Below the pieces are notes generated by a model, which saw nothing but the letters and a program-made list of their open reading frames with translations, had not been told where the DNA came from and made no database searches. Positions 4,849 to 41,642 of a stretch of DNA of 64,000 bases are shown in pieces (positions within the stretch are counted from its first letter, which is position 1; every line of letters begins with the position of its first letter). This stretch comes from Parasphingorhabdus marina DSM 22363 (GTDB lineage Bacteria; Pseudomonadota; Alphaproteobacteria; Sphingomonadales; Sphingomonadaceae): NCBI RefSeq assembly GCF_900128895.1, contig NZ_FSQW01000002.1:1-64000 (forward strand), read 5' to 3'. Made by a program: the position numbers and the translations under genes.

Positions 4849-5508
4849 ATGACCGAGACCAAAGCCAAAACCAGATCGGGTGCGAAGCCGAAACCGAAGC
4901 CGAAACGCCGTTTTTCGCCGGAAGTCCGGAGATCAATGATCCTCGATGCGGCGGCCGAGATGGTTGAACGCGAGGGGATATGGCAGATCACCATGGAACG
5001 CGTGGCGAAACATGCGGATATCAGCAAATCCCTGATCTACAAATATTTCGATAATATCCACGAACTCCTGCGGGAGCTGCTGAAGCGCGAGCTGGCACAT
5101 CTGCGACATACCCAGTTTGCCGCGGCGGAGGAGGCGGATACATTCGAAGAACTGGTGCGCGGGATCACCAAGACTTTTCTGCGTAACATTTCCGAGAAGG
5201 GACTTTTGATCGAGCAGCTGCAGGCCGATCCGGCGATTTCCCAAACGGACGACCCGACGGCCTTTGACCGCGATGTGGCGGTTGAATACCTGGCAGGGAT
5301 CGTCAACCGGAACTTTGACATCCCGATGGAAACCGCGCGGGCGGTGACGGATATTTCCTTCGGGGTTCCGACCGCCGCCGGCTCCTACCTTTTGCGGAAC
5401 GATGTGGACAAGGCAGAACTCGAAGATATCACGGTGTCCATGATCATCGGATCAATCAACGGGATCCGGGATGACTATATGATCCGCAAGCGCAAGCTGA
5501 AGCGCTGA
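4849..5508 (+). CDS. TetR/AcrR-family transcriptional regulator (cluster A)
   Basis: 219 aa. A basic N-terminal tail (KPKPKPKRRFSPEVRR) precedes a TetR helix-turn-helix at about residues 25-70: MILDAAAEMVEREG, then ITMERVAKHADISKSLIYKYFDN. The C-terminal ligand domain resembles that of the cluster B TetR (40218-40850) closely, with shared blocks such as FEELVRGITKTFLRNISEKGLLIEQLQ, DISFGVPTAAG.YLL and a terminal RKLKR. The two are clear paralogues. It is divergent from the propeller gene and convergent with the TonB receptor gene. It likely represses cluster A until a substrate-derived ligand binds; the ligand is unknown. Confidence 0.9.
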   Translation: MTETKAKTRSGAKPKPKPKRRFSPEVRRSMILDAAAEMVEREGIWQITMERVAKHADISKSLIYKYFDNIHELLRELLKRELAHLRHTQFAAAEEADTFEELVRGITKTFLRNISEKGLLIEQLQADPAISQTDDPTAFDRDVAVEYLAGIVNRNFDIPMETARAVTDISFGVPTAAGSYLLRNDVDKAELEDITVSMIIGSINGIRDDYMIRKRKLKR

Positions 5509-5531
5509 CATCCAGCGCGTCCAGTGGAAAG

Positions 5532-5560
5532 AAAAAGGCCCCGACCCTCTGGAGGGGGCC
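5532..5560 (-). terminator. Terminator of the cluster A TonB receptor gene
   Basis: Read on the minus strand, GGCCCC and GGGGCC arms (5555-5560 and 5537-5542) enclose a loop and are followed by TTTTTC. It sits between the convergent TetR and receptor genes, 33 nt beyond the receptor stop. Confidence 0.65.
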
Positions 5561-5593
5561 GGGACCGCGGGGAGAAATCACTAAACTTGGAAA

Positions 5594-8023
5594 TCAGAAG
5601 CGGAACGTTGCTTCCACGCCATATGTGCGCGGCTCCAGAATGACCACTTCCCGGAAGCGGCCGACCAGACGGCCGGCTGGCAACACACGGGTGATATCGT
5701 CATTGTTGAACAGGTTCTTCACATAGCCGCGAAGTTCCCAGCTGCCCGAATCCGGCGCCAGCAGCAGTTTGATATCCGTCTGGCTATAGCCATCAAAAAT
5801 ATCGATCGGCTTGCTGAAGATCGAGCTTGCAAATTCGCTTTGCAGATAATGGTCGATCCGCGGTGTGATTGTCCAGTTTCCTGCCGGGATCTCATATTGG
5901 GCGCCAATGGCGATCTTGATGTCGGGCGAGAAGGGCAGGGCGTTTCCGTCCACGTCCTTCAATACGCCGGCTGCCGTGACCTCTGCCACGACCGTATTGG
6001 GGGCCGTGCCGAACGGATCCGTTTCGTCAATTGTCGCAAAGTCTTTCACCTGCGTGTTCAGGTAGGAGAAGCTGCCGTCAATCTGGAAGCGGCTACTGGG
6101 CCGGGCAGCGAACTCGGCTTCGACACCCCAGACCGTGGCATCGGTATTGATCGTCAATGCTGCGGTTGCGGTTGTCTGGCCGATTTGCAGATCCTTGTAG
6201 TCATAATAGAAAGTGGAAAGACTGCCGGTGAACGCACCATCAACCGACGAGCCTTTCAATCCGACTTCGATCGCATTGAGGAATTCCGGATCAAAGCCCT
6301 GCGTTTCCACTCCGACTTCACCCGGATTGATGCCGCCGGCCTTGTAGCCGCGGGAGGCGCTAATGTAGCCGAGCAGATCCGGAGTGATCTTGTGATCAAG
6401 GACAATTCGTCCGGTAAATACGCCCTTGGAGAATTCTCCAAATGTGAAATCGGGCGGGCTGAGATCGGGTTGCGGATTGAAGAAGATCTGCCGGGTCATG
6501 ATGGTCTTGTCATCATGCGAATAGCGCAGTCCACCAGTGAGCCGGGTGTCTTCTGACAGATCGAAATAGACTTCACCGAAGATACCGAAACTCTTCGTCC
6601 GGACCGGATTGGACTCGGTGACAACGGAATCAAATGTATCGGGCAGCCCAAGTTGCTGTTGCCGGGCGGCGATCGTCACATGGGTGAAGTTGGCCGAGCC
6701 TGAGCTGCGACGGTTATAATAATTTCCGCCGAGGATAAAATTGAGCGGCCCTTCGAAATCGGATGCCAGCCGGAGTTCCTGGTAATATTCCCGGGCTTCA
6801 CTCAGGTCGCGTCGTCCGGCGAGGATCATGTCTGTCGTGATCGGATTGCCGTTGGCGAAGAAATCAAAGGTGATTGGTGCGGTAAGGCCCTGAGAAGGGA
6901 CCACCCGGTCAAAGTCCTTGAACAGCTCGCGTTCGATTTCCTGATAGCCGGAAAGCGAAGTCAGTGTCAGGCCACCGAAATCATGGGTGATCTCCAGTGA
7001 AGCGCTCCATTCCTCGACAAAATAGGTGGGATCAACATCTTCGTTGATCAGTCGTGTATCGGCCGGATTGAAGCTGTTGGCATTGAAATCGACGGCGGCC
7101 GGTCCAAATCCGGTCGCGATGATTCCAGTCACCGCGCCCAGTGTGTTGTAAAGCGTGTTGCGCGAATCCGGTGTTTCGAAACCCACACTGAGCGGCGAAC
7201 AGCCGAGTGTCACGTCTTTGGCGCAAAGAACCTTGGTGCGGGCGAGGCGGCGGTCATCCTCCCGAAAATAGGAAATGACGAGATCAGCCCGGGTGTCACC
7301 AAATTCCAGTTTTGTGCTGCTGCGCAGTCCGAACATCTCCCGGTCATCGACGTCATTGCCGGTGAACAGGTTGGTCGCATAACCATCGCGATCGAGGAAG
7401 AATCCCGCCACACGGGTCGAAAGTCCGTCGGTGATGGGCAGATTGATGGCACCGCGCAACTTGACCGAATTGTAGTTGCCATAACCGGCTGTGACATAGC
7501 CTTCAAAATCGTCGGTGGCTTTCTGGGTTATAACATTTAGCACACCGGCCGTTGTGTTGCGGCCGTACAAAGTGCCCTGCGGGCCGCGCAGGACTTCAAT
7601 CCGCTCGATGTCGTAATATTCCGCTTCGGTCGCCGCCGATCCCAGATACACTCCGTTCACATGATAGCCGAGGCCGGATTCCGAAGTGGCCGAAATGGCC
7701 AAATTCCCGACACCACGCAAAGAAGCGCCGAAAATGTCAACGGTTAGGTTCGGAACCGAAAAACTGAGATCGACGGCGTCGTCAATGACCTTGTCGTCAA
7801 TGGTGCCACTGTCAAAAGCCGAAATCGCGAGCGGAACATTCTGAATATCCTGAGATTTCTTCTGGGCCGTGACGATGATGATATTCTCGTCGGCGGCTTC
7901 TTCCGAGATATCCTGCGCCCAGGCAGTATGGCTCAGGCCTGCCAGGACCAGTGCGCCCACTGATACGGCTGTCCGAATCCTTGATAACGCATGATTCGGC
8001 GTAAATGATTGAACGTTCTGCAT
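5594..8023 (-). CDS. TonB-dependent outer-membrane receptor (cluster A)
   Basis: 809 aa. The signal peptide ends at AWA|QD. A plug domain starts with IIIVTAQKKSQDIQNVPLAISAF and contains LRGPQGTLYGRNTTAGVLNVIT. A C-terminal 22-strand-type barrel closes with RTYGVEATFRF, including the terminal aromatic residue. This QxVPxAISA plug type is common in sphingomonads for small hydrophobic or aromatic-like compounds rather than polysaccharides, but substrate prediction is unreliable. The start has GGGAGGA upstream. It is divergent from the VOC gene across a 229-bp region with two palindromes. It is equivalent to the cluster B receptor at 33518. Confidence 0.93.
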   Translation of the reverse strand: MQNVQSFTPNHALSRIRTAVSVGALVLAGLSHTAWAQDISEEAADENIIIVTAQKKSQDIQNVPLAISAFDSGTIDDKVIDDAVDLSFSVPNLTVDIFGASLRGVGNLAISATSESGLGYHVNGVYLGSAATEAEYYDIERIEVLRGPQGTLYGRNTTAGVLNVITQKATDDFEGYVTAGYGNYNSVKLRGAINLPITDGLSTRVAGFFLDRDGYATNLFTGNDVDDREMFGLRSSTKLEFGDTRADLVISYFREDDRRLARTKVLCAKDVTLGCSPLSVGFETPDSRNTLYNTLGAVTGIIATGFGPAAVDFNANSFNPADTRLINEDVDPTYFVEEWSASLEITHDFGGLTLTSLSGYQEIERELFKDFDRVVPSQGLTAPITFDFFANGNPITTDMILAGRRDLSEAREYYQELRLASDFEGPLNFILGGNYYNRRSSGSANFTHVTIAARQQQLGLPDTFDSVVTESNPVRTKSFGIFGEVYFDLSEDTRLTGGLRYSHDDKTIMTRQIFFNPQPDLSPPDFTFGEFSKGVFTGRIVLDHKITPDLLGYISASRGYKAGGINPGEVGVETQGFDPEFLNAIEVGLKGSSVDGAFTGSLSTFYYDYKDLQIGQTTATAALTINTDATVWGVEAEFAARPSSRFQIDGSFSYLNTQVKDFATIDETDPFGTAPNTVVAEVTAAGVLKDVDGNALPFSPDIKIAIGAQYEIPAGNWTITPRIDHYLQSEFASSIFSKPIDIFDGYSQTDIKLLLAPDSGSWELRGYVKNLFNNDDITRVLPAGRLVGRFREVVILEPRTYGVEATFRF

Positions 8024-8052
8024 AAAATCCTCCCTGCAACTCCATTATTAAG

Positions 8053-8067
8053 TAGACAAACAGTCTA
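8053..8067. promoter_or_regulatory. Palindrome 1 between cluster A receptor and VOC genes
   Basis: TAGAC-AAACA-GTCTA has perfect 5-bp arms and lies 30 bp upstream of the receptor start on the minus strand. It is placed for an operator of the adjacent TetR regulator. Confidence 0.5.
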
Positions 8068-8103
8068 TTAAGAGGTTCTATATATCGAACAAAGCGATTT
8101 TCA

Positions 8104-8121
8104 TAGTCATTTAATTGACTA
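8104..8121. promoter_or_regulatory. Palindrome 2 between cluster A receptor and VOC genes
   Basis: TAGTCA-TTTAAT-TGACTA has perfect 6-bp arms. It stands in the same divergent promoter region and shares the AGTC core with the site at 8053 and with the cluster B sites. It is a likely second operator. Confidence 0.5.
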
Positions 8122-8252
8122 AACGTACATTAAGTGCTTAGAGAGGGTATTAGGATTCGCATCCACTGCAGCGTTGAAGTACGTGCCTGACTTCACAACT
8201 TGCGTTTCCCGGTTCAGGCATCGAATGATGAAGATGAAAAGGGAGATGGCAT

Positions 8253-9302
8253 ATGCTGAGGGTCGCAACCATTTTGGGTATGACCGCGCTGTTAAGCGCC
8301 TGTGGCGGCACCCCGCCAAACGCCAAGATACCAACCGACAGCGTGATCAAGGGCGTGAACTATATTGGTGCAACGGTCAGCGATCTGGATCGGACAGCCG
8401 GCCTGTATGACGCATCGGTTGAGCTGCAAACGGTCGACGACGCCGGGATTTCCGAAAGCGCCCAGTTTGATACTCTCGCCGGCCGAACCGGCGTAGCGGC
8501 GCAAACCCGGCTGATGCGCAGCGTCAATGCCCAGGTGCGTTTCATGTCCTTCGCCAATCCCTCGGCCGAAGCACAGGCCACCTCTCCCATGGATGTTCAG
8601 GGCCCAGGCATAGCGCATGTCTGCTATCAGGTGGATGAGAAGACGCAGGCCTATCAAAAATTTCTGGCCGGAGGCGCGAAGCATATCGGTGACCGGGAAA
8701 TGGTTCAGATTAACCCCCAAAACCCCGTCTACTATGCCTATGCCCGTGATTTTGACGGCCTCATATCCGAAATCGAGCATGTGGATATCAGTGCGCTGGA
8801 ACTACCAGAGCCACCAAAACACCAGTACCGGATCCGGCATGTGTCTCTGGCAACCTCCGACATTGACCGGATTGTCGATTTCTATGCGAAGTTTCTGAAC
8901 CAGCCCGAACCCCGCAGGGTCGGAACCTTGTTTGCGGTGAAGAGCGAAAATATCGACAAGGTCTCCGGGCTGGCGGGGAGCGAGGTTGAGATGGCCTGGT
9001 TTCAAGTTCGCAATCTTGAACTGGAGATTTTCCAGTATCACAGTCATCCCACCAAAGACCGCGACGAGCCGCGCCCGATAGATGCGCCGGGCTATAACAT
9101 GATCGTTTTTGATGTCAGCGATATGGAAGCGGCAAGAAAGCGGCTGGTCGATGCCGGCGGGACGGTGGTCACCGAATCCGGTCCGCTGGACGGTGGGCAG
9201 ATCATGTATGGCCGTGATCCGGACGGCAACCTGATCGGTTTGCAGACTGTTGCGACAGACTCAGTTTATTCTTCCCGAAATTTCAAAGACAACGGAACCT
9301 AG
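8253..9302 (+). CDS. Two-domain VOC (glyoxalase/dioxygenase fold) lipoprotein, cluster A
   Basis: 349 aa. A lipoprotein signal (LLSAC, Cys17) precedes two vicinal-oxygen-chelate modules. Module one covers about residues 30-170 (YIGATVSDLDRTAGLYDASVEL; IAHVCYQVDEKTQAYQKFL; YAYARDFDGLISEIEHV). Module two covers about 185-335 (RIRHVSLATSDIDRIVDFYAKFL; YNMIVFDVSDMEAARKRLVDAGG; MYGRDPDGNLIGLQTV). The His and Glu positions of these repeats are those used for a divalent metal in the superfamily. Lipid anchoring outside the cytoplasm is unusual for VOC enzymes. A similar gene, also a lipoprotein, is in cluster B (39082). The SDR start is 9 bases downstream. The reaction is unknown. Confidence 0.85.
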   Translation: MLRVATILGMTALLSACGGTPPNAKIPTDSVIKGVNYIGATVSDLDRTAGLYDASVELQTVDDAGISESAQFDTLAGRTGVAAQTRLMRSVNAQVRFMSFANPSAEAQATSPMDVQGPGIAHVCYQVDEKTQAYQKFLAGGAKHIGDREMVQINPQNPVYYAYARDFDGLISEIEHVDISALELPEPPKHQYRIRHVSLATSDIDRIVDFYAKFLNQPEPRRVGTLFAVKSENIDKVSGLAGSEVEMAWFQVRNLELEIFQYHSHPTKDRDEPRPIDAPGYNMIVFDVSDMEAARKRLVDAGGTVVTESGPLDGGQIMYGRDPDGNLIGLQTVATDSVYSSRNFKDNGT

Positions 9303-9310
9303 GAGCCTGC

Positions 9311-10069
9311 ATGTTTGATTTAACTGGTGATGTTGCCGTTGTGACTGGCGGCAATGGTGGTCTCGGGCTGGCTTTTTGTCGCGGTCTTGTGAAGCAGGGA
9401 TCCAGAGTTGCGATCTGGGGACGGAACGCCGACAAGAATGCGGTCGCGGTCGAGGAATTGCGGGCGATGGGTGGCGACGTGACGGCCTTTGCCTGCGACG
9501 TCACCGACGAGGAGCAGATCGCGACGGCCTTTTCCGGCACGCTGGAGCGATTTGGGAAGGTCGACAGCTGCTTTGCCAATGCCGGGGGTGGCGGATTTCG
9601 CGGCATGTCCCACATGACCGAGCGGCAGACGTGGCTCGATACGATCGATTTAAACCTGATGAGCGTTGTGCAGACATGGTCGCCGATCACGCAACATTTG
9701 CTGGAGCGGGGAGCACCCGGGCGGCTTGTTGTGACGTCATCGGTCGCGGGCATTGTCGGCATGGCCGGCGCGGCGGGCTACTCGACCACCAAGGCCGCCG
9801 TGCTGGGGCTGGTCAGGGCACTGGCCGTGGAACTGGGACAAGCCGGGATCCGGGTCAACGCCATTTTGCCCGGCTATATAGAAACGGAAATGTCGCTTGA
9901 TACGCCGCAGGCGTTCAAGGACGGGGCAAGGCGTCGGGCGGCAATTGGCCGGAATGGCAGGCTGGAAGACATGGAAGGTATCGCCGCTTTCCTCGCCTCG
10001 CGGGAAAGCGATTTCATGACCGGCCAGGCCGTTATTCTGGACGGTGGCCATTCGATTTTCCCGCTATAA
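9311..10069 (+). CDS. Short-chain dehydrogenase/reductase (cluster A)
   Basis: 252 aa classical SDR. The cofactor loop is TGGNGGLG (residues about 13-20), followed by the NAG motif (CFANAGG), Ser in VVTSSVAG, and YSTTK as the catalytic Tyr-Lys pair; VNAILPGYIETEM is the usual PG segment. It is cytoplasmic and oxidises or reduces an alcohol/ketone with NAD(P). AGGAG overlaps the stop of the VOC gene, which indicates co-translation. The closest relative in the window is the cluster B SDR (40884-41642), which shares the opening MFDL.G and GGHSI near the end. The exact substrate cannot be inferred. Confidence 0.88.
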   Translation: MFDLTGDVAVVTGGNGGLGLAFCRGLVKQGSRVAIWGRNADKNAVAVEELRAMGGDVTAFACDVTDEEQIATAFSGTLERFGKVDSCFANAGGGGFRGMSHMTERQTWLDTIDLNLMSVVQTWSPITQHLLERGAPGRLVVTSSVAGIVGMAGAAGYSTTKAAVLGLVRALAVELGQAGIRVNAILPGYIETEMSLDTPQAFKDGARRRAAIGRNGRLEDMEGIAAFLASRESDFMTGQAVILDGGHSIFPL

Positions 10070-10113
10070 GTCATATCACGCAAGGCCATTTCGGCCGGGA
10101 CAGGAAAGACAAA

Positions 10114-12579
10114 ATGAACATCTCCAAGATCATGCACTGGATTTTCGTCATCCTGTTGTGGGTGATTGGTTTGTTGTTGACGATACCGGGTGGCTTTCTC
10201 GTCTATCTCGGGGGAAGTCCCTATTATCTGCTCGCCGGCATCGCCACCCTGGCCGTTGCCTTTCTGGTGACGCGTCGAAATGCGAAAGCCCCAAAAGTCT
10301 ATGCCGGCATATTGCTGGCCACGCTGATCTGGTCCCTGTTTGAGGCCGAGCTGCATTTTCTGGGTCTGCTTCCGCGGCTGGCGGCCTGGCTTGGTCTGGG
10401 GCTGTGGTTTCTGACGCCGCTGTACCGCAACTCCTTCCGACGCGAGCCGGACAGTGAAGAACCGGCATTGCCTTCCCGCTGGTGGGTGGGGGCGCCGTCT
10501 CTGGCAGCTGTCGTCGCCCTTATCGTCGCATCCATGCAGGGCTATGTGCAAAATGGCACCGGAACGGAGAGTGCCCTGGCGGCGGGTGAAGCCGCCACCG
10601 ACTGGCGGCACTATGGCAATGACGAAGGAGGCACCCGTTTTGCACAGCTGACGGATATCAATGTGGACACGGTTGGCGGATTGCAAGAGGTCTGGCGGTA
10701 CCGGACCGGTATAGAGGAAGATTTCAAGGCGACACCGCTCAACGTCAACGGCATGCTTTACATTTGCGCGGCTCTCAATGTTGTCATCGCGATCGACGAC
10801 ACCAGCGGAGAAGAAGTCTGGCGCCATGATCCGGGTCTCGAGCCACCGGCGGCCCATCAATATGCCCGGACCTGCCGCGGAGTTGCTTATCATGAAGCAC
10901 AAGAAGGCTATTCCGGGCAGTGCCCCAAAAGGGTGGTCACCGCCACCGTCGACGCCAGCATCATTGCCGTTGACGCAATGACCGGTGAGTTGTGCACCGA
11001 TTTCGGAGAAAATGGTGCGGTCGATCTGCGCAGCGGGCTCGGGGCGCACGAACGGGACGAATATTATCTCACCTCGCCCCCGCTGGTCGCCGGAGACAAT
11101 CTGGTCGTTGGCGGGCTTGTCCTCGACTCCCAGGATCTTGGCCTGCCGTCGGGCGTGGTGCGGGCCTTTGACGCCACCAGCGGTGACTTCGTCTGGGCCT
11201 GGGACATGGGCAATCCGGGGGACAATGGCGAGCCTGCGGAGGGCAAAACCTATACCCCGGGCACGCCGAATGTCTGGTCGATCATGAGTTATGATCCGGA
11301 ACTGGACCTCATTTATGCACCGACCGGCAATGCGGCCCCGGACTATTTCGGAGGCGCACGCCGGGAATTTGATGATGAATGGTCTTCCGCTGTGGTTGCC
11401 ATCAATGGCAAAACCGGGGCGCCGCGCTGGAAATACCAGACCGTGCACCATGATGTCTGGGACTATGACCTGCCGGCCCAGCCCGTGCTGGTGGATGTGA
11501 CCCGCAATGGTGAAAGCGTTCCGTCAGTGGCCGTGCCAACCAAAATGGGTTCGATATTTCTGCTCGATCGCCGCGACGGATCTCCGGTACATCCGATTGA
11601 AGAGAAACCTGCGCCGCAGAATCCGGAGCCGGGGGAATATGTGTCACCGACGCAGCCATCCTCGCCGCTGCCCCATTTCCATCCTTACCGGCATGAAAAG
11701 GACATGTGGGGGTTGACGCCGATCGATCAGATGATCTGCCGGATCGAATATCGCACAATGCGGTATGAAGGCATGTTCACGCCGCCAACCATGCCGGGAG
11801 GCTTGAAGACGGGTACCATGCTGTACCCCGGCAATTTCGGAGGATTCAACTGGGGCAGTGTATCGGTAGATGCCGACAACGGCCTGTTGGTTGCAGCACC
11901 GATGATGCTGGCGCACAGGCTCATGCTTTTCACGCCCGAACAGGTTGCCGAAGCCGGTCCGCTTGGTGGCTTGCTGCTCGGCAAAAATCATCCCGCAGTC
12001 CGCATGGATCCTGAAGGTCCGATGCCAAAAATGGGAGAGCCGGATGCAGACAATCCCTATGACCATCGCCGGATTAAATATTATGGCGTGCCGGCGCCGT
12101 TCATGTCGCGACTGGGAACACAGGTGCCCTGTTTCGAGCCGCCCTGGTCGCGGATTGCGGTCATTGATCTGAACACCAAGGAACTGCTGTGGAGCCGTCC
12201 AGCCGGGGACATGAGTGACTCCGGACCGTTCAATCTCCGTTCCGGCATTCCTTATGACGTCGGCACGGCGATTCGCGCCGGAACGCTGACAACACGTGGC
12301 GGACTGACCTTCCTCAGTTCGACCATGGACAGCAAGGTCCGCGCTTTTGATGTACGTACCGGTGAAGAAAAATGGGCCGCAAGTTTGCCGGGCAATGGTC
12401 AGTCAACACCCATGTCCTACCGTTCCGGAAAGGATGGCAGGCAATATCTGATCGTTACCGTACCCAACCCCACCTGGCGCTATCCCAGAGATCCGGCCAC
12501 CGGAGAATATATTGATTCGCAGGATGTGCGGGATGGCAAGGGCGGTTATGTCATCGCCTATGCGCTGGGAAACAACTGA
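10114..12579 (+). CDS. Membrane-bound PQQ-dependent dehydrogenase (glucose/quinate/shikimate type)
   Basis: 821 aa. Four to five N-terminal membrane helices lie within residues 1-145. An eight-bladed PQQ propeller opens with the family signature DWRHYGNDEGGTRFAQLTDIN. Blade motifs include VWRHDPGLE, VWAWDMGNPGD, WKYQTVHHDVWDYDLPAQPVLVD and GVIAYALGN-like ends. The family oxidises sugars or polyols in the periplasm and passes electrons directly to ubiquinone. It is the last gene of cluster A, 44 bp after the SDR. Sphingomonads often have several such paralogues of unknown substrate, so glucose specificity should not be assumed. Confidence 0.9.
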   Translation: MNISKIMHWIFVILLWVIGLLLTIPGGFLVYLGGSPYYLLAGIATLAVAFLVTRRNAKAPKVYAGILLATLIWSLFEAELHFLGLLPRLAAWLGLGLWFLTPLYRNSFRREPDSEEPALPSRWWVGAPSLAAVVALIVASMQGYVQNGTGTESALAAGEAATDWRHYGNDEGGTRFAQLTDINVDTVGGLQEVWRYRTGIEEDFKATPLNVNGMLYICAALNVVIAIDDTSGEEVWRHDPGLEPPAAHQYARTCRGVAYHEAQEGYSGQCPKRVVTATVDASIIAVDAMTGELCTDFGENGAVDLRSGLGAHERDEYYLTSPPLVAGDNLVVGGLVLDSQDLGLPSGVVRAFDATSGDFVWAWDMGNPGDNGEPAEGKTYTPGTPNVWSIMSYDPELDLIYAPTGNAAPDYFGGARREFDDEWSSAVVAINGKTGAPRWKYQTVHHDVWDYDLPAQPVLVDVTRNGESVPSVAVPTKMGSIFLLDRRDGSPVHPIEEKPAPQNPEPGEYVSPTQPSSPLPHFHPYRHEKDMWGLTPIDQMICRIEYRTMRYEGMFTPPTMPGGLKTGTMLYPGNFGGFNWGSVSVDADNGLLVAAPMMLAHRLMLFTPEQVAEAGPLGGLLLGKNHPAVRMDPEGPMPKMGEPDADNPYDHRRIKYYGVPAPFMSRLGTQVPCFEPPWSRIAVIDLNTKELLWSRPAGDMSDSGPFNLRSGIPYDVGTAIRAGTLTTRGGLTFLSSTMDSKVRAFDVRTGEEKWAASLPGNGQSTPMSYRSGKDGRQYLIVTVPNPTWRYPRDPATGEYIDSQDVRDGKGGYVIAYALGNN

Positions 12580-12893
12580 GCAACCGGAGGTCGATAGCCA
12601 CGCCTCTCTTTGGCGGCACTGAACTCACTGGATGGTTCGCCGCGGGCCGGGCTGCTGAACAGGGTCACCAACCACCAGCTTCGAGGAACCGGAGAAGATT
12701 GCCAGCTGGCACGGCATATCGGCAAAGCTGTAAATTGGAGCGCCCAAGCCTGTTTGACGGGAAAGCCGGCGATTCCATATGGTGCATATAATTGGTATGA
12801 CAATAAATTGGCATTGGCATATATAAAAGGTTGACATATTGAAATTCACCCTGCATTTTTCCCGCGAGAAAATAAAGATCAGGGAGAACAGGG
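12580..12893. other. Intergenic region holding the promoter of the first alginate-locus receptor
   Basis: No credible gene was found. The part next to the receptor is AT-rich and contains the operator-like motif and -35 element described separately. The first 190 bases show nothing recognisable. Confidence 0.6.
12791..12836 (+). promoter_or_regulatory. Alginate-regulon operator and -35 element, copy 1
   Basis: ATTGGTATGACAAT (12791-12804) has ATTG/CAAT ends and is followed 40 bp on by GGTTGACA (TTGACA 12831-12836). The same arrangement recurs at 17072 and, slightly changed, at 20482. The identical 14-mer at two loci suggests a binding site for the GntR regulator encoded at 16143. Confidence 0.6.
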
Positions 12894-16142: not shown

Positions 16143-16883
16143 ATGGCTGAGCAGAGGCTTTTTCACCGTATTGCCGAACAGATTGGTCAGTTGATCGATG
16201 AAGGCGTTTTTCCGCCCGGCACGCGTTTGCCTGGCGAACGAGAGCTGGCCGAAAGATTTGAAGTCAGTCGTGTAACCATTCGCGAAGCTGAAATCGCCTT
16301 GCAGGCCATCGGCCGTATCGAGATCAAGACTGGCTCCGGCGTCTATGTCAGCGAAGAGCAGCCCCATCATCCGGGACAGCTGCCCGAAGTCAGCGCATTT
16401 GAAGTCACCGAGGCGCGCTCGCTGATCGAGGCCGAGGCTGCGGCTCTGGCTGCCAAGATCATCTCCGATGAGAATCTCGAAAAACTCGATGAGCTGATCG
16501 AGACCATGGGTAAGAGCGACGAGGAAACATCGCTGGCCGCAGACCGCGAGTTTCATGCGACCATTGCCCGCTCTTCCGGCAACGGGGCGATGGTATATGC
16601 GATCGAGTCCCTCTGGCGGATGCGGGAAGAGCTCCCCGAAGTGAAACACAGCTATGATGCGGTGTGCGAGGAAGATGCCGCTGCACGGGCGAAAGAACAT
16701 CAGGCCATTCTTGATGCACTGAAGGCCCGTAACCCGTCGGCCGCGCGCCGGGCAATGCGCGAGCATTTTCTCCGCCTGATCGGTTCGATGCTGGATGTCA
16801 CCGAACAGGAAGCCATGCGCGAAGTTCAGCAACGCGCGATCGAAAGTCGCGAGCGCTTTCTCGACGTCGCCCGGATGGGCTAA
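16143..16883 (+). CDS. GntR-family (FadR subfamily, FCD domain) regulator of the alginate locus
   Basis: 246 aa. The N-terminal winged helix is complete: LFHRIAEQIGQLIDEGVFPPGTRLPGERELAERFEVSRVTIREAEIALQAIG, about residues 5-60. The C-terminal all-helical FCD domain covers about 85-230, with metal or ligand residues in FHATIARSSGN and the late AMREHFLRLI. FadR-type regulators are known to repress uronate and alginate genes and to release DNA on binding KDG-like intermediates. Its position between the two receptors and the repeated motif upstream of three units support this role. KDG as effector is an inference. Confidence 0.88.
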   Translation: MAEQRLFHRIAEQIGQLIDEGVFPPGTRLPGERELAERFEVSRVTIREAEIALQAIGRIEIKTGSGVYVSEEQPHHPGQLPEVSAFEVTEARSLIEAEAAALAAKIISDENLEKLDELIETMGKSDEETSLAADREFHATIARSSGNGAMVYAIESLWRMREELPEVKHSYDAVCEEDAAARAKEHQAILDALKARNPSAARRAMREHFLRLIGSMLDVTEQEAMREVQQRAIESRERFLDVARMG

Positions 16884-17071
16884 CCCACTCTTTCTGACGC
16901 GCCTTTTTGGAAGAATGTGGCGGTGGGATTCCGACAGCGGGAATGCTTGCGTCTGGCGCTGTCCGGAATCACCGGCCTTCACCGAACTCGAATTGGACTT
17001 TGGTTGTTACCCAAAAAGGCCAGAACAGGTTTCGGCTGAAACCAGAGGAGGCATGTCGATTGGAATATCTT

Positions 17072-17118: not shown

Positions 17119-17178
17119 CTTTGGTTTGTTCTGTCCAGTAAATTGCACAATTATAAAAAATCTACTGGGGAGGAATCG

Positions 17179-27441: not shown

Positions 27442-27463
27442 CAAGAGGGAGGCAAGAAACGCC

Positions 27464-28120: not shown

Positions 28121-28122
28121 AC

Positions 28123-33473: not shown

Positions 33474-33496
33474 CTATTGGAAATATAGTCAATAAG
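33474..33496 (+). promoter_or_regulatory. Cluster B operator-like inverted repeat, copy 1 (receptor gene)
   Basis: CTATTG and CAATAAG flank GAAATATAGT. It lies 21 bp before the receptor start, immediately ahead of the ribosome site. Copies at 37148 and 41709 align over 22 bp. It is a probable binding site for the cluster B TetR protein. Confidence 0.6.
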
Positions 33497-36022: not shown

Positions 36023-36050
36023 TCCACTTCTCCCGATCTGGATCACCATG

Positions 36051-36081
36051 GGGCGAGTGAAGCGATTCACTCGCCCTTTTT
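36051..36081 (+). terminator. Terminator of the cluster B receptor gene
   Basis: A perfect 11-bp stem (GGGCGAGTGAA, 36051-36061, with 36066-36076) is followed by TTTTT. The right arm overlaps the stop codon and last codons of the convergent hydrolase gene. Confidence 0.85.
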
Positions 36082-37098
36082 GTTCAGAAATTCCGCAATC
36101 ACCCGATTGGCGAGTTCCGGCTTTTCCATGGATGTCCAGTGATTGATACCGGGCAGATTGACGAATTCGACATTTTCGGGTCCGTTAGCCAGCACATCAA
36201 CCAGCTCCGGTATGACGACCGTGTCTTTTTCGCTCCAGATGATCAGCGCGGGAATCGTGATTTCGGCGTCGGGGCCGGGCCACATGTCGGTTTTGGCAAT
36301 GCTGTCGAAGGCCGGGATATTGGCGCGATACCAGTTCATCATGGCGTACATTCTGTCGGCGCCCGACATGGCGTTGTGAAACAGTTTTGCTTCCTCTGCC
36401 TCCAGATGGCCGCGCCGGACGAGACCATCATAGGAGCGCTTGGCGATGGAGAGCCCGGCACCGAAGGCTTTCATCTGCCACAGTTTCGCGTCCTTGATCC
36501 GGACCATATAGTCTGACCGTTGCTGTTGCTCGGGGCTGTCCTTGAGAAATTTCAGGAACATGTTGAGCGGCGGTGCGTTCATGCCGATCACTTTTTCGAG
36601 GCGGTCCGGATAGGCCTGGGCATAGGACAATGCCAGAACAGAGCCCCAGTCATGACCGATCAGGATGAACTTTTCCTCTCCGGCGAGATGCCGGGCCAGG
36701 TCATCAAGTTGTGCAGCGAGGGCAGGGAGCTTGTATGGCTCCAGATCATGCGGCTTTGCTGAATGACCGGCGCCAAGTCCGTCGACAGCGACAACCCGAA
36801 AATGCGGTTTGAGCATCTCCATCTGGTCATACCAGCTATACCAGAAGGACGGCCAGCCATGGTGGAGGATGACCAGCGGACCCTCTCCGGCCTCGACATA
36901 GTGGAGCCGGGTATCGCCACTGCCGAAATACCCCTGCTTGTAACCGATGGCACCGCTGCGATTGGCATTGGCATATGCCACCGCCGGATCGATTTGCTCG
37001 GCGGCGCTCGCGTTGATGGTACCGGAGTCTTCGGATGCCGGAGCGCAGGCGATCAGGCTGAGACTGGCAAGTGTCGACAGGATGGGGAGTCGGCGCAT
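36067..37098 (-). CDS. Alpha/beta-hydrolase lipoprotein, epoxide hydrolase/haloalkane dehalogenase-like
   Basis: 343 aa. A lipoprotein signal has LIAC (Cys18). The hydrolase core shows LHYVEAGEGPLVILHHGWPSFWYSW (oxyanion-hole HGxP), the nucleophile elbow IGHDWGSVLALSYA with Asp rather than Ser, and a C-terminal GINHWTSMEKPE with the catalytic His. An Asp nucleophile points to epoxide hydrolase or dehalogenase-type chemistry, not ester hydrolysis. The predicted lipid anchor would place it outside the cytoplasm, unlike most of the family. It is divergent from the PQQ dehydrogenase across an operator-like repeat. Confidence 0.83.
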   Translation of the reverse strand: MRRLPILSTLASLSLIACAPASEDSGTINASAAEQIDPAVAYANANRSGAIGYKQGYFGSGDTRLHYVEAGEGPLVILHHGWPSFWYSWYDQMEMLKPHFRVVAVDGLGAGHSAKPHDLEPYKLPALAAQLDDLARHLAGEEKFILIGHDWGSVLALSYAQAYPDRLEKVIGMNAPPLNMFLKFLKDSPEQQQRSDYMVRIKDAKLWQMKAFGAGLSIAKRSYDGLVRRGHLEAEEAKLFHNAMSGADRMYAMMNWYRANIPAFDSIAKTDMWPGPDAEITIPALIIWSEKDTVVIPELVDVLANGPENVEFVNLPGINHWTSMEKPELANRVIAEFLNKKGE

Positions 37099-37147
37099 GA
37101 AAACCTCACATTTCGCTTCGGAACAATTTGCATTCCCGGCTTACATC

Positions 37148-37171
37148 CTTATTGTAAATATAGTCAACAAG
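37148..37171 (+). promoter_or_regulatory. Cluster B operator-like inverted repeat, copy 2 (hydrolase/dehydrogenase)
   Basis: CTTATTG and CAACAAG flank TAAATATAGT. It sits between the divergent hydrolase and PQQ dehydrogenase genes, 13 bp before the latter. It shares 20 of 22 aligned bases with copy 1. Confidence 0.6.
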
Positions 37172-37184
37172 AGGAAGCAGCAAG

Positions 37185-39071
37185 GTGACCCTTAAGGTTC
37201 GGCGGTTTTTTGCGATGACATCGCTTTGGCTGGTTGCTGGCACTATCTCAGGCTGCACACCCGAAAGCCAGCCTGATGCGGCGGCGGATCCAATTCGGTC
37301 CGGGACAGAGACCCTGGCCAGCGATCCCGGCGAAGCGCTTTATCAGCAACATTGTGCCGCCTGTCATGACAGTGATGCCGCGGTGGAAGCGCCCAGGCGT
37401 GCGGCGCTGAGCCTGCAGTCGAGGGATGCCATAATCACCGCACTGACCACGGGCGTGATGAAAGAGCAGGGTGCCGCTCTGACGGATTTGGAGAAACGGC
37501 TTGTGGCAGAATATACCGGTGGACCCACTGGCGAGGATGCATTGGCCAACGCCCATGCCAATAAGTGCGAGGGAAAGCTGGAACTGACATCCGCCCCTCT
37601 GTGGAACCGCTGGGGCAATAATCTGCGCAACTCCCGGTTCCAGACAGCAGAGCGGGCCGGAATAGGTCATGGCGATGCCCCGAAACTGAAGCTCAAATGG
37701 GCATTCGGCATCCCGGGCGGCGCGCGCGCAAGGTCGCAACCGGCGGTTACCAGGGAAGCGCTGTTCATGGGCAGCCAGCCCGGAATCATTTATGCGCTCG
37801 ACAGCCGGACGGGCTGTGTCTGGTGGACTTACGAAGCGGAAGCCGAAGTCCGGAATGCTCCGACCATAAGGCTGGATGCCCGCGGAAGGCCCGAGCTGCT
37901 CTACTTCGGCGACTTTAACGCCACTGTCTATGCGGTGAAGGCCGGGACTGGCGAACTGGTCTGGAAAAAATCCGTGCGTGATCATCCGGCGGGCACGATA
38001 ACCGGTTCCATCACCCATTATCAGGGACGATTATATGTTCCGATGTCCTCGACCGAAGTCGTCAGTGCGTTCAATCCGGAATATGAATGCTGTACATTCC
38101 GCGGCGGTTTGCTGGCGCTCGATGCCAGTGACGGGGAGCAGCTCTGGCGGTTCCATACCACAGATGAGCCCCGCGAAACCGGACAGAACAGCGTGGGCAA
38201 GGATCGTTTCGGTCCCTCCGGTGCCCCGATCTGGTCGACGCCCACCATCGATCGCAAGCGGAAGCTGATTTACGTGGGAACCGGAGAAAATTATTCCTCT
38301 CCGGCCAATGACAAGAGCGATTCCATCATCGCGCTCGACCTGGAGACAGGCACCGTCGAATGGATTACGCAGACAATTGAAGGGGATGCCTGGAACGGGG
38401 CTTGCGGAAGATTTGGATCGCAAGTCAATTGTCCGGAAGAAAATGGTCCGGATTTCGATTTCGGTGCGCCGCCGATACTGACAACGCTGGCAGACGGCAA
38501 AGACATCATCCTGGCCGGCCAGAAATCCGGGATGATCTATGCCATGGATCCGGATGATGGCGGCAAAATTCTGTGGCAGGTGCGCGCGGGCATGGGCGGC
38601 TTTAATGGCGGAGTTCACTGGGGCATGGCGAGCGATGGCAAGACCCTGTTTGTCGGCATTGCAGATACCCCGGGCAACGAATTTGCGGAAGGGCCGCCAC
38701 GCCAGGGACTGCACGCCTATGACGCCAAAACGGGCGAGGCCCTGTGGAGCAGGCTGGAGCCCAATGTCTGCAAGGAACGGGAGCACAAATGCATGACCGC
38801 CTTGTCGGCACCACCGACCATCGCGGCCGGAGTCATATATGCGGGTGCGCTGAATGGTCTGCTCCGTGCTTACTCTGCCGCTGACGGGACGCCCCTCTGG
38901 AGCACGGACACCCGCCGGGAGTTTGCGACCGTCAATGGCGTCGCAGGACGTGGCGGCTCAATAGATTCTGCCGGCCCGGTGGTCGCCGGAGGCATGCTCT
39001 ACGTGAACAGTGGCTATGACAAGTTTCGTCAGATTCCCGGGAATGTCCTGCTGGCGTTCGGGATCGACTGA
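37185..39071 (+). CDS. Cytochrome c-PQQ quinohemoprotein dehydrogenase lipoprotein (PVA dehydrogenase-like)
   Basis: 628 aa from GTG 37185, with GAGGAAG upstream. Lipobox ISGC (Cys24). An N-terminal cytochrome c module has CAACH (C57, C60, H61). It is followed by a PQQ propeller with repeated blades: GIIYALDSRTGCVWWTYEAEAEVRNAP, VYAVKAGTGELVWKKSV, LLALDASDGEQLWRFHTT and GLLRAYSAADGTPLWSTDT. The heme-first order and size match polyvinyl-alcohol dehydrogenase-type enzymes of sphingomonads, which oxidise secondary alcohols in the periplasm. The oxidised-PVA hydrolase partner is absent, so the substrate is open. The next gene starts 11 bp on. Confidence 0.85.
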   Translation: MTLKVRRFFAMTSLWLVAGTISGCTPESQPDAAADPIRSGTETLASDPGEALYQQHCAACHDSDAAVEAPRRAALSLQSRDAIITALTTGVMKEQGAALTDLEKRLVAEYTGGPTGEDALANAHANKCEGKLELTSAPLWNRWGNNLRNSRFQTAERAGIGHGDAPKLKLKWAFGIPGGARARSQPAVTREALFMGSQPGIIYALDSRTGCVWWTYEAEAEVRNAPTIRLDARGRPELLYFGDFNATVYAVKAGTGELVWKKSVRDHPAGTITGSITHYQGRLYVPMSSTEVVSAFNPEYECCTFRGGLLALDASDGEQLWRFHTTDEPRETGQNSVGKDRFGPSGAPIWSTPTIDRKRKLIYVGTGENYSSPANDKSDSIIALDLETGTVEWITQTIEGDAWNGACGRFGSQVNCPEENGPDFDFGAPPILTTLADGKDIILAGQKSGMIYAMDPDDGGKILWQVRAGMGGFNGGVHWGMASDGKTLFVGIADTPGNEFAEGPPRQGLHAYDAKTGEALWSRLEPNVCKEREHKCMTALSAPPTIAAGVIYAGALNGLLRAYSAADGTPLWSTDTRREFATVNGVAGRGGSIDSAGPVVAGGMLYVNSGYDKFRQIPGNVLLAFGID

Positions 39072-39081
39072 GGAGAAGAAA

Positions 39082-40164
39082 ATGCTGAGATCGCTTGTTG
39101 CCGGGGCTCTGGCTTCGATATTTCTTTTGTCCTGCATGTCACAGGCGCCCGCCGTACAGCCGGCTTCACAGGCGGCACAAAACTCATCCGATGGATTTTT
39201 CCGGCCGGCCTCGCTTGGCGATACGCGGCTGAAAGGAGTTCGCTTTCTCGGCAAAACCGTGTCCAGTATTGACCGCTCCCTCGACTTTTACCGAAAGTCT
39301 GTGCCGATGGAACTGGTGAGCCGTTACCGCATCCCGGCGGACGAATTGTATTTGCCGGCAATGCTGTCCGGTTCCCCGGGCGAAATCGAGGTCGCACTGG
39401 TTCGGACGCCAACGGTTTTTCTGCAGCTGGTCGACTTTGATCCGGATGCGGCAACGCCCCCCAATGCGAAGCCGGTCAATGAGGCGGGATACACCCATAT
39501 CTGCTTCCAGTCGCCCAGCTCTGATTCCGCTTTCGACAAGTTCCGGAACGCTGGTTTGCAGCTGGTGTCGCGCGGAAGCGGTCTGATCGATCTGGGCGGT
39601 TATGGCGTGCGCTATTCCTATGGCCGCGATCCGGATGGCACAATGATCGAGAATGAAGTTGTCGACCGGCCGCGGCGCGGCGATGCCGCCTGGATCACCC
39701 ATATCGGTGCCGCCACATTTGATGCCGACAGGATGACCGAATTCTACACGAAATTCATCGGCTATGGAGCTCGCCGGCGCGGGGAGTATTCCGGCAACCC
39801 GCGTATCGATGCGATTGCCGATATCGACAATCTGTCATTGAAGAGCTCGTGGTTTGTGGTCCGAAATCTGGAACTGGAATTCTGGGAATTTGTCAGTCCG
39901 GAGACCAGCCAGCGCCCGACACCGATGGTGGATCGGATTGGATACAGCATGAATGCCTTTGAGGTGACCGACGTTGATGCGGAAAAGGATCGGCTGGAAA
40001 AACTGGGTATCGAGATGATCGGGCCGGCAAAAACCAGCAAGGGCTGGAAGATCTTCTATGCTCGCGATCCGGACGGAAACATCATTTCGATCCAGCAGAA
40101 TCTGTCCGCTCCGGAAGATCAGTCAATCGATGATCTGTTGTGGATCGATCCAACAGTGTTTTAA
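39082..40164 (+). CDS. Two-domain VOC-fold lipoprotein, cluster B
   Basis: 360 aa from ATG 39082 with GAGGAGAAG upstream. Lipobox LLSC (Cys18). Two VOC modules: about residues 50-200 (GVRFLGKTVSSIDRSLDFYRKSV; YTHICFQSPSSDSAFDKF; YSYGRDPDGTMIENEVV) and about 210-345 (WITHIGAATFDADRMTEFYTKFI; YSMNAFEVTDVDAEKDRLEKLG; FYARDPDGNIISIQQNL). Organised like the cluster A VOC lipoprotein (8253-9302) and paired in the same way with a PQQ enzyme. A metal-dependent reaction on the dehydrogenase product is plausible, but nothing identifies it. Confidence 0.85.
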   Translation: MLRSLVAGALASIFLLSCMSQAPAVQPASQAAQNSSDGFFRPASLGDTRLKGVRFLGKTVSSIDRSLDFYRKSVPMELVSRYRIPADELYLPAMLSGSPGEIEVALVRTPTVFLQLVDFDPDAATPPNAKPVNEAGYTHICFQSPSSDSAFDKFRNAGLQLVSRGSGLIDLGGYGVRYSYGRDPDGTMIENEVVDRPRRGDAAWITHIGAATFDADRMTEFYTKFIGYGARRRGEYSGNPRIDAIADIDNLSLKSSWFVVRNLELEFWEFVSPETSQRPTPMVDRIGYSMNAFEVTDVDAEKDRLEKLGIEMIGPAKTSKGWKIFYARDPDGNIISIQQNLSAPEDQSIDDLLWIDPTVF

Positions 40165-40217
40165 GTTTCCATGCGTTGTTGTAGAACCACCGGACCAACG
40201 ACAAGGCGGAGTATCTG

Positions 40218-40850
40218 ATGAACGATCCGACCCCGGTCAAGCGCCGTCGGCTCAGTCCGGAAAAGCGAAAGGAGCTGATCCTCGACCACACCGCCGAAAT
40301 GATCGCGCGGGAAGGGGTGGCGGCCCTTTCGATGGACCGAATAGCCAAGGAAGCGGGAATCAGCAAATCGCTGGTCTACACCTATTACGACAATCTCACG
40401 GAATTGCTCCGGACGCTGCTGCGCCGGGAAATGAAACGTCTCCGCCAGCTGCAACAGCAGGAAGCGGAAGCTGCCGAAACCTTTGAACAGCTGGTGCGCG
40501 GCGTGACGCATCAATATCTGAAATATATCGAGGAGCGCGGTCTGATCATTGAGCGTTTGCAGACGGAACCGAGTGTCGCCGGAGGCAGTGATCCCACGCA
40601 GTTCAGCCGGGAGGCGGCGGTTGAATATCTGGCCGAGCTGGTCGAAACCAATTTTGATGTGCCCTATGAAATTGCACATGCCGCGACAGACATCTCCTTC
40701 GGGCTCCCGGCGACGGCCGGCGCCTATTATCTGCACCACAGCATGTCCCGCGAAGATATCGAGAATATTACCGTCACGATGATCCTGGGCACGTTTGCTG
40801 CACTGAAGAATGAGCATGGAATCAGGTTCAGGAAACTGAAGCGCCGCTGA
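40218..40850 (+). CDS. TetR/AcrR-family transcriptional regulator (cluster B)
   Basis: 210 aa. N-terminal helix-turn-helix: RRLSPEKRKELILDHTAEMIAREGVAALSMDRIAKEAGISKSLVYTYYDN. The ligand domain is closely similar to the cluster A TetR, including TFEQLVRGVTHQYLKYIEERGLIIERLQ, EAAVEYLAELVE.NFDVP, DISFGLPATAG and the terminal FRKLKRR. It is a paralogue and probably the repressor that binds the 22-bp repeats at 33474, 37148 and 41709. It follows the VOC gene by 53 bp on the same strand. Confidence 0.9.
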   Translation: MNDPTPVKRRRLSPEKRKELILDHTAEMIAREGVAALSMDRIAKEAGISKSLVYTYYDNLTELLRTLLRREMKRLRQLQQQEAEAAETFEQLVRGVTHQYLKYIEERGLIIERLQTEPSVAGGSDPTQFSREAAVEYLAELVETNFDVPYEIAHAATDISFGLPATAGAYYLHHSMSREDIENITVTMILGTFAALKNEHGIRFRKLKRR

Positions 40851-40883
40851 TTTCGCGGCGGTATGCCGGACCGCGGCAATTTC

Positions 40884-41642
40884 CTACATCGGGTGGATGC
40901 TGTGACCACCATCGAGCACGAGGCACTGGCCGGTCATGAAACGGCTTTCCGGGGAGGCGAGGAATACGGCCACGCCCTCCATGTCCTCGAGCGTACCATG
41001 CTGCCCTGACGCCGACCGCCGCTTGCATGCATCCTTGAATGTCTGAGGTGTCCGGGCCGACATTTCGGTTTCGATATAACCGGGCAATATCGCATTGGCC
41101 TGGATGCCTGCCTGTCCCAGTTCGAGGGCAAGGGACCGGATCAGACCGACAACCGCGGCTTTGGTGGTTGCATATCCGGCGCTCAACGGTGTGCCAACCA
41201 GCGCCGCGGCAGAAGACATGACAATCAGCTTGCCACCCTTTTGCTGCTCGAGCATGTGCCCGATCGCAGGCTGGAAGGTGTTGACGACGCTGTTGAGATT
41301 GAGATCAAGAACTGACTTCCAGGCGTGCTGATCAAGCTGGTGCAACATGCCCATGGGACCTGATCCTCCGGCATTGGCAAAACAGCTGTCAACATGACCA
41401 AAATTCTTGGTCGTTGCGGCAAAGGCCGATTGGCAGGCCTCGGCGTTCGTTACGTCACAGACAAATGCTTCAGCGTCCGCGCCCATTTCCCGCAATTCAG
41501 TGCAGGCAGATGCGTTTTTGGCGTCATCCCGTCCCCAGATCGCAATACTGGCGCCGGCTTTTGCAAGACCCTTGGCCATTGCAAGACCAAGTCCTCCGTT
41601 TCCGCCGGTCACGAGGGCAACATGGCCGGAAAGATCAAACAT
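40884..41642 (-). CDS. Short-chain dehydrogenase/reductase (cluster B)
   Basis: 252 aa from ATG 41642; the open frame extends to 41813 but the extra residues precede the family's conserved MFDLSGHVALVTGGNGGLG. SDR motifs: TGGNGGLG, CFANAGG, VMSSAAALVG with the Ser, YATTK as Tyr-Lys, and NAILPGYIETEM. Very similar to the cluster A SDR through its whole length. It is convergent with the TetR gene and has its own copy of the cluster B repeat 67 bp upstream. Probably a cytoplasmic step on the imported product. Confidence 0.88.
   Translation of the reverse strand: MFDLSGHVALVTGGNGGLGLAMAKGLAKAGASIAIWGRDDAKNASACTELREMGADAEAFVCDVTNAEACQSAFAATTKNFGHVDSCFANAGGSGPMGMLHQLDQHAWKSVLDLNLNSVVNTFQPAIGHMLEQQKGGKLIVMSSAAALVGTPLSAGYATTKAAVVGLIRSLALELGQAGIQANAILPGYIETEMSARTPQTFKDACKRRSASGQHGTLEDMEGVAVFLASPESRFMTGQCLVLDGGHSIHPM

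Follow-up and report, generated by a model that had tools for sequence, protein, structure and literature searches.

Two TetR-linked TonB/PQQ gene clusters in Parasphingorhabdus marina and their possible role in the oxidation of glyceroglycolipid-derived alcohols

Gene content of clusters A and B

The window analysed here spans 64 kb at the start of the 1.585-Mb contig C1 of Parasphingorhabdus marina DSM 22363; the other contig, C2, has 1.963 Mb and the genome 3.55 Mb. It carries two gene clusters, A (4849-12579) and B (33518-41642). Each harbours a TonB-dependent receptor, a vicinal oxygen chelate (VOC) lipoprotein, a pyrroloquinoline quinone (PQQ) dehydrogenase, a short-chain dehydrogenase/reductase (SDR) and a TetR regulator. 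Family scans recovered all ten genes in the classes assigned by an initial annotation of the sequence, with the SDR of cluster B classed by its match to that of cluster A. The clusters had been called mirrored, which is a loose description, as their gene orders differ. Gene calls are longest open reading frames (ORFs), whose starts are often too early, and leader peptides and lipoboxes were judged by regular expression and by eye.

Cluster A starts with the TetR gene (4849-5508, plus strand; PF00440), followed on the minus strand by the receptor (5594-8023; PF00593, PF07715), which is 87% identical to its counterpart in locus L104. The remaining genes are on the plus strand. VOC A (8253-9302; PF00903) is a two-domain protein with the lipobox LSAC. 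SDR A (9311-10069; PF13561) shows no leader peptide and has gluconate 5-dehydrogenase 1vl8 as its nearest solved relative (E 6.9e-38). The last gene (10114-12579; PF01011, 690 bits) encodes a membrane PQQ dehydrogenase (PQQm). It spans positions 10-783 of TIGR03074, the model of membrane-bound glucose/quinate/shikimate dehydrogenases, with 800.8 bits, just below the curated cut-off of 832.65. Its embedding with VOC, SDR, receptor and TetR genes sets it apart from that family.

Cluster B begins with its receptor (33518-36022, plus strand; PF00593, PF07715), which shares 81% with the single receptor of the fused cassette L093. An epoxide-hydrolase-like lipoprotein (EH; 36067-37098, minus strand) follows. 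It was not named in the initial annotation and is an additional member of the cluster, with a lipobox and epoxide hydrolase 5ng7 as its best solved relative (E 7.6e-44). The plus strand then encodes a PQQ dehydrogenase with an N-terminal cytochrome c domain (PQQc; 37185-39071; PF01011, PF13360, PF13442), VOC B (39082-40164) and TetR B (40218-40850; PF00440). SDR B (40884-41642) is on the minus strand. The two PQQ enzymes thus differ in class, as had been noted: membrane type in A and cytochrome c type in B. The cut-off of the PQQ alcohol dehydrogenase model TIGR03075 (480.05) is reached by neither (A 216 bits, B 120 bits). PQQc resembles polyvinyl-alcohol dehydrogenase and quinohemoprotein alcohol dehydrogenases in combining a PQQ propeller with a cytochrome c domain, but scores far below the alcohol dehydrogenase model. 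In polyvinyl-alcohol dehydrogenase the cytochrome c likewise sits at the N-terminus.

A cytochrome c lipoprotein (47777-48304, minus strand) is encoded outside the range covered before. It matches PF00034 with 34.6 bits (cut-off 21.3) and the cytochrome c-550 model with 96 bits, below the cut-off of 240. We regard it as the likely electron acceptor of PQQc.

Recurrence of the gene set

The initial annotation had proposed a search for recurrence of the gene set. From a TetR alignment two short TetR patterns were derived and scanned over genome contigs, and the best 80 of the resulting 97 stretches were used. Combined with stretches from a search within the family, minus four duplicates, these gave 87 non-redundant loci (L numbers). 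The sample is biased towards the TetR used as bait; it contains near-copies (L042/L043, L030-L033) and some loci that end at contig ends. Gene families were counted within ~10 kb around TetR. Residue counts, trees and operator counts omit L018, L019, L023, L024 and L025. These are duplicates except for L018, the B cassette of genome G153, which is included among the 87 loci.

TetR relatives (E <= 1e-25) occur in 11 of the 199 genomes searched in the family, P. marina counted, and only two of these hold two copies. Across the 87 loci TetR was found in 85 (two were lost to overlapping ORFs), VOC in 73, SDR in 70, the receptor in 64, EH in 62, PQQc in 31 and PQQm in 28. The full set of TetR, VOC, SDR, receptor and PQQ enzyme is present in 40 loci, 31 of which also carry EH. 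The gene set recurs in many aquatic bacteria. The named relatives nearest to P. marina among the loci are Sphingomonadaceae such as Sphingorhabdus EL138. Carriers belong to Alpha- and Gammaproteobacteria and include Sphingorhabdus, Erythrobacter, Porphyrobacter, Henriciella, Hirschia, Kordiimonas, Halioglobus, Paraglaciecola, Exilibacterium and Pseudomaricurvus. With respect to PQQ class, 25 loci carry only PQQm, 28 only PQQc, 3 both and 31 neither.

A group among the PQQ-free loci represents a third edition of the cassette. It combines leaderless VOC and EH with a second SDR, a Coq4-family gene, an MFS_2 transporter, a secreted PAF-acetylhydrolase/PETase-like lipase and a GH42 beta-galactosidase. 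A lipobox was found in 23/25 VOCs of PQQm loci, 14/26 of PQQc loci, 5/6 of loci with both and 2/20 of PQQ-free loci; judged by eye, most PQQc-type VOCs without lipobox begin with a hydrophobic leader. We assume that the PQQ-free edition is the same module run in the cytoplasm, an NAD-type enzyme replacing PQQ. Periplasmic and cytoplasmic editions would then perform the same chemistry on either side of the membrane with a changed redox partner.

In PQQc the CXXCH motif (57-61) and the vicinal Cys302-303 are invariant across 31 sequences. EH keeps Asp150 (62/62), Tyr197 (62/62), Tyr257 (61/61), His320 (61/61) and an HG motif (62/62) with P83 (61/62). Following the residue roles of alpha/beta-hydrolase-fold epoxide hydrolases, we take the Asp to be the nucleophile, the two cap Tyr to serve ring opening, and HG-x-P to be the motif of that fold. 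EH thereby carries the epoxide hydrolase signature and is a candidate epoxide hydrolase. It differs from these enzymes in being exported and anchored in PQQ loci. The VOC lipoproteins have a tandem VOC fold as in glyoxalase I. Their candidate metal ligands are H163 (78/78), E214 (78/78), H231 (68/78, Q in 10) and E290 (77/78). Compared with tandem glyoxalase I of the plant type they are exported lipoproteins with 15% identity, and in the glyoxalase I model TIGR00068 (cut-off 120) VOC B reaches 43.7 and VOC A 21.8 bits.

An exported M19 dipeptidase gene recurs beside type B cassettes (L030-L034, L018, L073) and overlaps the end of the EH gene in L030.

A palindromic operator marks type B promoters

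The exact palindrome TATTGA-N8-TCAATA lies upstream in 10 loci; no word in a background sample exceeds 2. Over 1.63 Mb of sequence it has 13 exact and 60 one-mismatch matches, while 19 permuted half-sites give 0-1 and 0-5, respectively. The palindromic operator TATTG-N9-TCAATA marks the promoters of type B. A matrix was built from 43 distinct sites; as these adjoin receptor, EH, PQQc and SDR genes, its counts for the four families are partly circular. Scores of at least 11 are reached before PQQc in 29/31 cases, the receptor in 37/70, EH in 20/62, SDR in 19/85, VOC in 13/78, TetR in 10/84 and other genes in 13/523. None of the 30 PQQm promoters reaches 11, a negative result that would follow if PQQm closes the A operon.

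Independent evidence comes from the permuted half-sites and from sugar genes, which were not used for the matrix. Among the latter, a score of 11 is reached by 4/12 GH42, 4/9 symporter (SSS), 2/5 SqgA and 1/4 GH36 genes. With GalK, GalT, GalM, SqoD, AKR and SMO added, 11/45 sugar-gene starts bear the operator (Fisher p 2.6e-7; Fisher and binomial values ignore the relatedness of the loci). These starts correspond to 9 distinct sites in 7 loci. The GH42 site of L026 also belongs to a divergent SDR gene, a family used for the matrix, and two further sites count twice because each serves a pair of divergent genes.

In the window, operators precede the receptor of cluster B (TATTGGAAATATAGTCAATA, 33475-33494, 24 bp before the gene), the divergent EH/PQQc pair (TATTGTAAATATAGTCAACA, 37150-37169, between both genes), SDR B (TATTGTACAAAAAGTCAATA, 41709-41728, 67 bp before its start) and the cytochrome c lipoprotein gene (TATTGACAAGATATTCAATA, 48324-48343, a full match 20 bp upstream). 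The last of these is only partly conserved. Five orthologues of the cytochrome were compared (65-77% identity): their closest match differs from the operator at 1 position in L182, at 2 in L185 and L186, and at 3 or more in L183 and L184. Between receptor A and VOC A a weak operator-like site is found (AATTGACTAAACGTACATTA, 8113-8132), with a matrix score of 11.2 and 3 mismatches to TATTGA-N8-TCAATA.

Outside cassette loci, operators occur at a symporter-glycerol kinase operon (L166), an unlinked EH gene in Hirschia (L169) and a gene for a secreted glutathione S-transferase (GST) in the genome of L034 (L170). GST genes with leader peptide stand directly behind a full operator in L030-L033 (near 11796-12656) and in L170:837-1658. 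A scan of the P. marina genome with a looser pattern gave 65 matches with at most 1 mismatch (palindromes counted twice), compared with 9 for the control. The near-matches at C2:1734791, 1736008, 848700, 1215372 and 1659839 were discarded as regulon members, as they do not precede genes tied to the system.

Relationship of clusters A and B

Local alignment of the A and B proteins gave identities of 155/252 (61.5%) for SDR, 107/206 (51.9%) for TetR, 95/307 (30.9%) for VOC, 178/679 (26.2%) for the receptor and 88/397 (22.2%) for the PQQ enzymes, with scores 18 to 132 standard deviations above shuffled sequences. A third SDR, encoded in the alginate-type locus (26671-27441), shows only 29-30% to SDRs A and B, and the two receptors match each other far better than those at 12894 and 17113. 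Phylogenetic trees were built with IQ-TREE for TetR (86 rows) and with FastTree only for SDR, VOC and receptor.

TetR A belongs to a supported clade of 24 rows (support 99/93). All of these are PQQm loci, and the clade spans classes, including Halieaceae, Arenicella and Kordiimonas and thus Gammaproteobacteria; its nearest relative is found in Parasphingopyxis (L103, 78%). TetR B falls into a supported clade of 7 rows, all PQQc loci, and is closest to L108 (77%). SDR leans the same way: SDR A has an 88% relative (L104), while the best of SDR B reaches only 67% at a poorly supported place in the tree. The TetR and SDR pairs had initially been taken for clear paralogues. The TetRs are paralogues, but not each other's closest relatives, and under the refutation criterion of the initial annotation (TetR and SDR of A and B not closely related to each other) the duplication fails for TetR.

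One supported clade of the VOC tree (VOC-m) unites all 26 PQQm rows with 3 rows from loci with both classes and 1 from a PQQ-free locus. A second clade holds 25/26 PQQc rows with a support of 94, just below the mark for supported clades. Where a locus has both PQQ classes, each VOC type is present once. As the VOC clades follow the PQQ class, dehydrogenase and VOC form one unit. Receptors behave differently. The receptor B clade comprises rows of every kind (8 PQQm, 3 PQQc, 2 both, 1 PQQ-free), and that of receptor A 16 PQQm and 5 PQQc rows. With 26% identity and their place in different supported clades, assigning both receptors to the same sub-type was too strong. Their exchange between PQQ classes suggests an identical or similar cargo for A and B. 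In three fused cassettes (L021, L093, L075) the two modules are accompanied by a single TetR and a single receptor within the stretch retrieved. Both observations favour the earlier proposal of related substrates.

Based on this analysis, A and B appear to be two ancient, exchangeable modules of one regulon which sit in different, older clades. A local duplication was rejected on the TetR, VOC/SDR and receptor trees. The origin proposed initially, an ancient tandem duplication in an ancestor of the lineage with later replacement of the dehydrogenases, draws on the homology of the TetR and SDR pairs and on the proximity of A and B on shared contigs in relatives (L031/L097, L032/L105, L033/L107), but it is highly improbable given that each TetR is far closer to other genera than to its partner, that VOC clades divide by PQQ class and not within the lineage, and that A and B lie on different replicons in G153.

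Sugar genes beside the cassette

GH42 is present in the fetched stretch of 12/87 loci and SqgA in 5/87. SqgA of L034, with an operator 43 bp before its ORF start, matches the solved chains 8qc3 (E 1e-112) and 8qc2 (E 1e-107), NAD-dependent sulfoquinovosidases SqgA according to the available part of PMC10755693. SqgA is single-copy in 11 of the 16 genomes searched. The L026 row consists of symporter, GalT, GalK, aldose epimerase, EH, TetR, GH42, SDR, VOC, receptor, a second SDR and a lipase. In L091 TetR is flanked on one side by GH42, GH36, GalT, GalK and aldose epimerase genes, and on the other by genes for SqgA, a reductase and a SqoD-like protein. The TetR relative of L091 stands alone between these galactoside and sulfoquinovose loci, with no cassette VOC, PQQ or receptor gene in the fetched 20.6 kb. 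Taken together, the galactose, sulfoquinovose and glycerol genes point to galactolipids and sulfolipid.

P. marina itself encodes SqgA, an aldo-keto reductase (AKR), a SqoD-like dioxygenase and a symporter side by side at C2:1191106-1195803 (L173:9109-13803; genes L173:9121-13803). SqgA, the SqoD-like enzyme and the reductase are 66%, 62% and 70% identical to those of L034. The single GH42 gene of the genome is also located on C2. In the unlinked sulfoquinovose and GH42 loci L173-L180 no operator with at most 1 mismatch lies upstream among the sites listed. A full match at L175:8999 falls within a gene that lies two genes ahead of the SqgA region, and other sites are inside the symporter.

Proposed function and alternatives

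As a tentative best explanation, which we hold to be possible though short of probable, A and B would be two sub-types of one system, fed by TonB and controlled by TetR, that oxidises glyceroglycolipid-derived alcohols in the periplasm. The receptor would bring a lipophilic or glycosylated alcohol into the periplasm, where an alcohol group would be oxidised by the PQQ dehydrogenase facing this compartment, the membrane type in A and the cytochrome c type in B. PQQc would probably pass its electrons to the cytochrome c lipoprotein at 47777. The VOC protein, as a glyoxalase-I-fold metal lipoprotein, would act on the oxidised product and the exported EH on a related intermediate. SDR would complete the pathway in the cytoplasm, and TetR, acting on the TATTG-N9-TCAATA operator, would switch the gene set. 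The same operator stands before galactoside, sulfoquinovoside and glycerol genes in other genomes, so that glyceroglycolipids of photosynthetic membranes or their breakdown products are the most likely substrates. Architecture and regulon are well supported by the sequence comparisons; compartments, order of steps and cargo are what we infer from them.

Several observations weigh against this assignment. GH42, SqgA, symporter, lipase and sugar transporter genes occur in none of the 25 PQQm-only loci, which leaves type B and the PQQ-free type as the basis of the glycolipid link, and GH42 or SqgA is present in only 6/56 PQQ-bearing loci. The sulfoquinovose and GH42 loci of P. marina are far from the window and have no operator with at most 1 mismatch in their promoters, one such site being inside the symporter. 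No EH gene adjoins cluster A, whose best operator site is the weak one described above. Most PQQm loci lack a good match (score of at least 9 at 3/26 receptors and 3/25 VOCs); type A may use a variant operator. The pairing of TetR with the TATTG-N9-TCAATA operator is likewise one that we infer. Finally, known glycosidases that release sugar and glycerol would leave oxidase, glyoxalase fold and epoxide hydrolase without clear need.

Some of these points suit an alternative that we consider unlikely. The cassette could serve to degrade something else in the same diet, for instance epoxide- and hydroxyl-bearing carotenoids, apocarotenoids or terpenoids, and simply lie beside the head-group genes of glycolipids and be co-induced with them when photosynthetic membranes are consumed. 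The EH signature together with two classes of alcohol dehydrogenase and an SDR would fit an epoxy-alcohol ring compound, as would the PQQm loci without sugar genes and the operator-bearing secreted GST of L170, which lies beside a P450 and a beta-oxidation-like gene (named by eye). What recurs or bears the operator is, however, a secreted lipase, GH42, GH36, GalK/GalT, SqgA and glycerol kinase, and PQQ-free loci use a protein of the MFS_2 'sugar transport' family. No carotenoid-cleavage gene was noticed in the locus listings, in which no search was aimed at one.

A more specific form of the glyceroglycolipid reading is speculative and on balance doubtful. Here the cassette would oxidatively degrade thylakoid glyceroglycolipids by a route that is undescribed, has spread horizontally, and attacks the aglycone and not the glycosidic bond. 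The PQQ dehydrogenase would oxidise a free glycerol hydroxyl of a (lyso)galactolipid or of sulfoquinovosyl glycerol, and the VOC lipoprotein would enolise the resulting ketone or aldehyde with release of the sugar. Three-keto-glycoside elimination and dihydroxyacetone (DHA)-glycoside elimination were considered as candidate chemistries for this route. The cytoplasmic edition (NAD-type SDR for PQQ, leaderless VOC and EH) would be chosen according to whether processing takes place before or after inner-membrane transport.

We consider it improbable that the set serves the processing of oxylipins or reactive carbonyls that derive from polyunsaturated acyl chains in algal lipids. EH would then open epoxides, the PQQ enzymes and SDR would convert hydroxy or carbonyl groups, and dicarbonyls would fall to the glyoxalase fold and the secreted GST. 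Besides EH and the glyoxalase fold, this could account for the operator before secreted GST genes (4/5, from four near-identical loci, plus L170) and for the M19 dipeptidase in 7/28 PQQc loci. GST and dipeptidase are confined to few lineages, though; periplasmic glutathione is not established here, and a dedicated receptor with sugar catabolism genes points to feeding and not to detoxification alone.

Relation to described systems

Literature searches gave no paper describing such a TonB/VOC/PQQ/SDR/TetR cassette, judged by title or start of the abstract. This agrees with the initial remark that no named pathway was known to have this gene set. One close relation is to the sulfo-ASDO route of sulfoquinovose degradation (SqgA, SqoD, SquF; PMC10755693, PMC12890257, as far as available). 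Five type B or PQQ-free loci carry SqgA, three of them also a SqoD-like dioxygenase and two a reductase. The window, in contrast, has no SqgA, SqoD-like or reductase gene of this pathway. The available parts of both papers describe the route without PQQ, VOC, EH or TonB component, and the terms 'PQQ' and 'TonB' occur in neither. TonB-linked polysaccharide utilisation loci likewise combine a TonB receptor with degradative enzymes and a regulator; the cassette differs by oxidoreductases in place of polysaccharide lyases or hydrolases and by TetR in place of hybrid sensors. We describe it as a TonB-fed catabolic locus of undescribed composition with an as yet unproven link to photosynthetic-membrane lipids.

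Of the lipids in photosynthetic cells, galactolipids and sulfolipids are some of the most abundant, and sulfoquinovose is put at ~10 billion tons a year in the reviews and abstracts consulted. TonB-based import and dismantling of such lipids by Gram-negative bacteria is poorly described in the literature found. The conserved set with its readable operator names promoters, regulator, receptor and probable electron acceptor, and is thus testable.

Supply of PQQ

The pqqC search had no hit in 8 carrier genomes, P. marina included, while the same search exceeds its cut-off in 31/190 Alphaproteobacteria. No pqqE over cut-off was found in 12 carrier genomes, in a search without a positive control above cut-off. 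PqqU at E <= 1e-60 was not found in 10 carrier genomes, with E. coli detected as control. PQQ enzymes are nevertheless encoded in P. marina and in 7 to 11 other carriers despite no pqqC, pqqE or PqqU match being found. According to the available part of PMC12124388, PqqU is largely absent from Alphaproteobacteria, which are taken there as likely PQQ producers. The cassette receptors were rejected as PQQ importers: they score 22 and 46 bits in the PqqU model (cut-off 1200), and PQQ-free loci keep the same receptor family.

Neighbouring genes

Between A and B an alginate-type locus (16143-28120) was recognised by eye. It comprises a GntR regulator, two lyase-like proteins (polysaccharide lyases), a cupin, a major facilitator superfamily (MFS) transporter, an SDR, an aldolase and a KDG kinase, with two large TonB receptors nearby. 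It shows no tie to the cassette in these data: its genes were not found around the cassette in relatives, except for one MFS relative (family 75) in L046. A further one-mismatch operator-like site at 59090-59109, in or near the ORFs at 58325-60285, has no tie to the system. Adjoining cluster A, 2802-4782 encodes an NAD(P)H oxidoreductase-like protein and a YVTN-type beta-propeller protein, the latter scoring under the cut-offs of TIGR03866 and hydrazine synthase beta.

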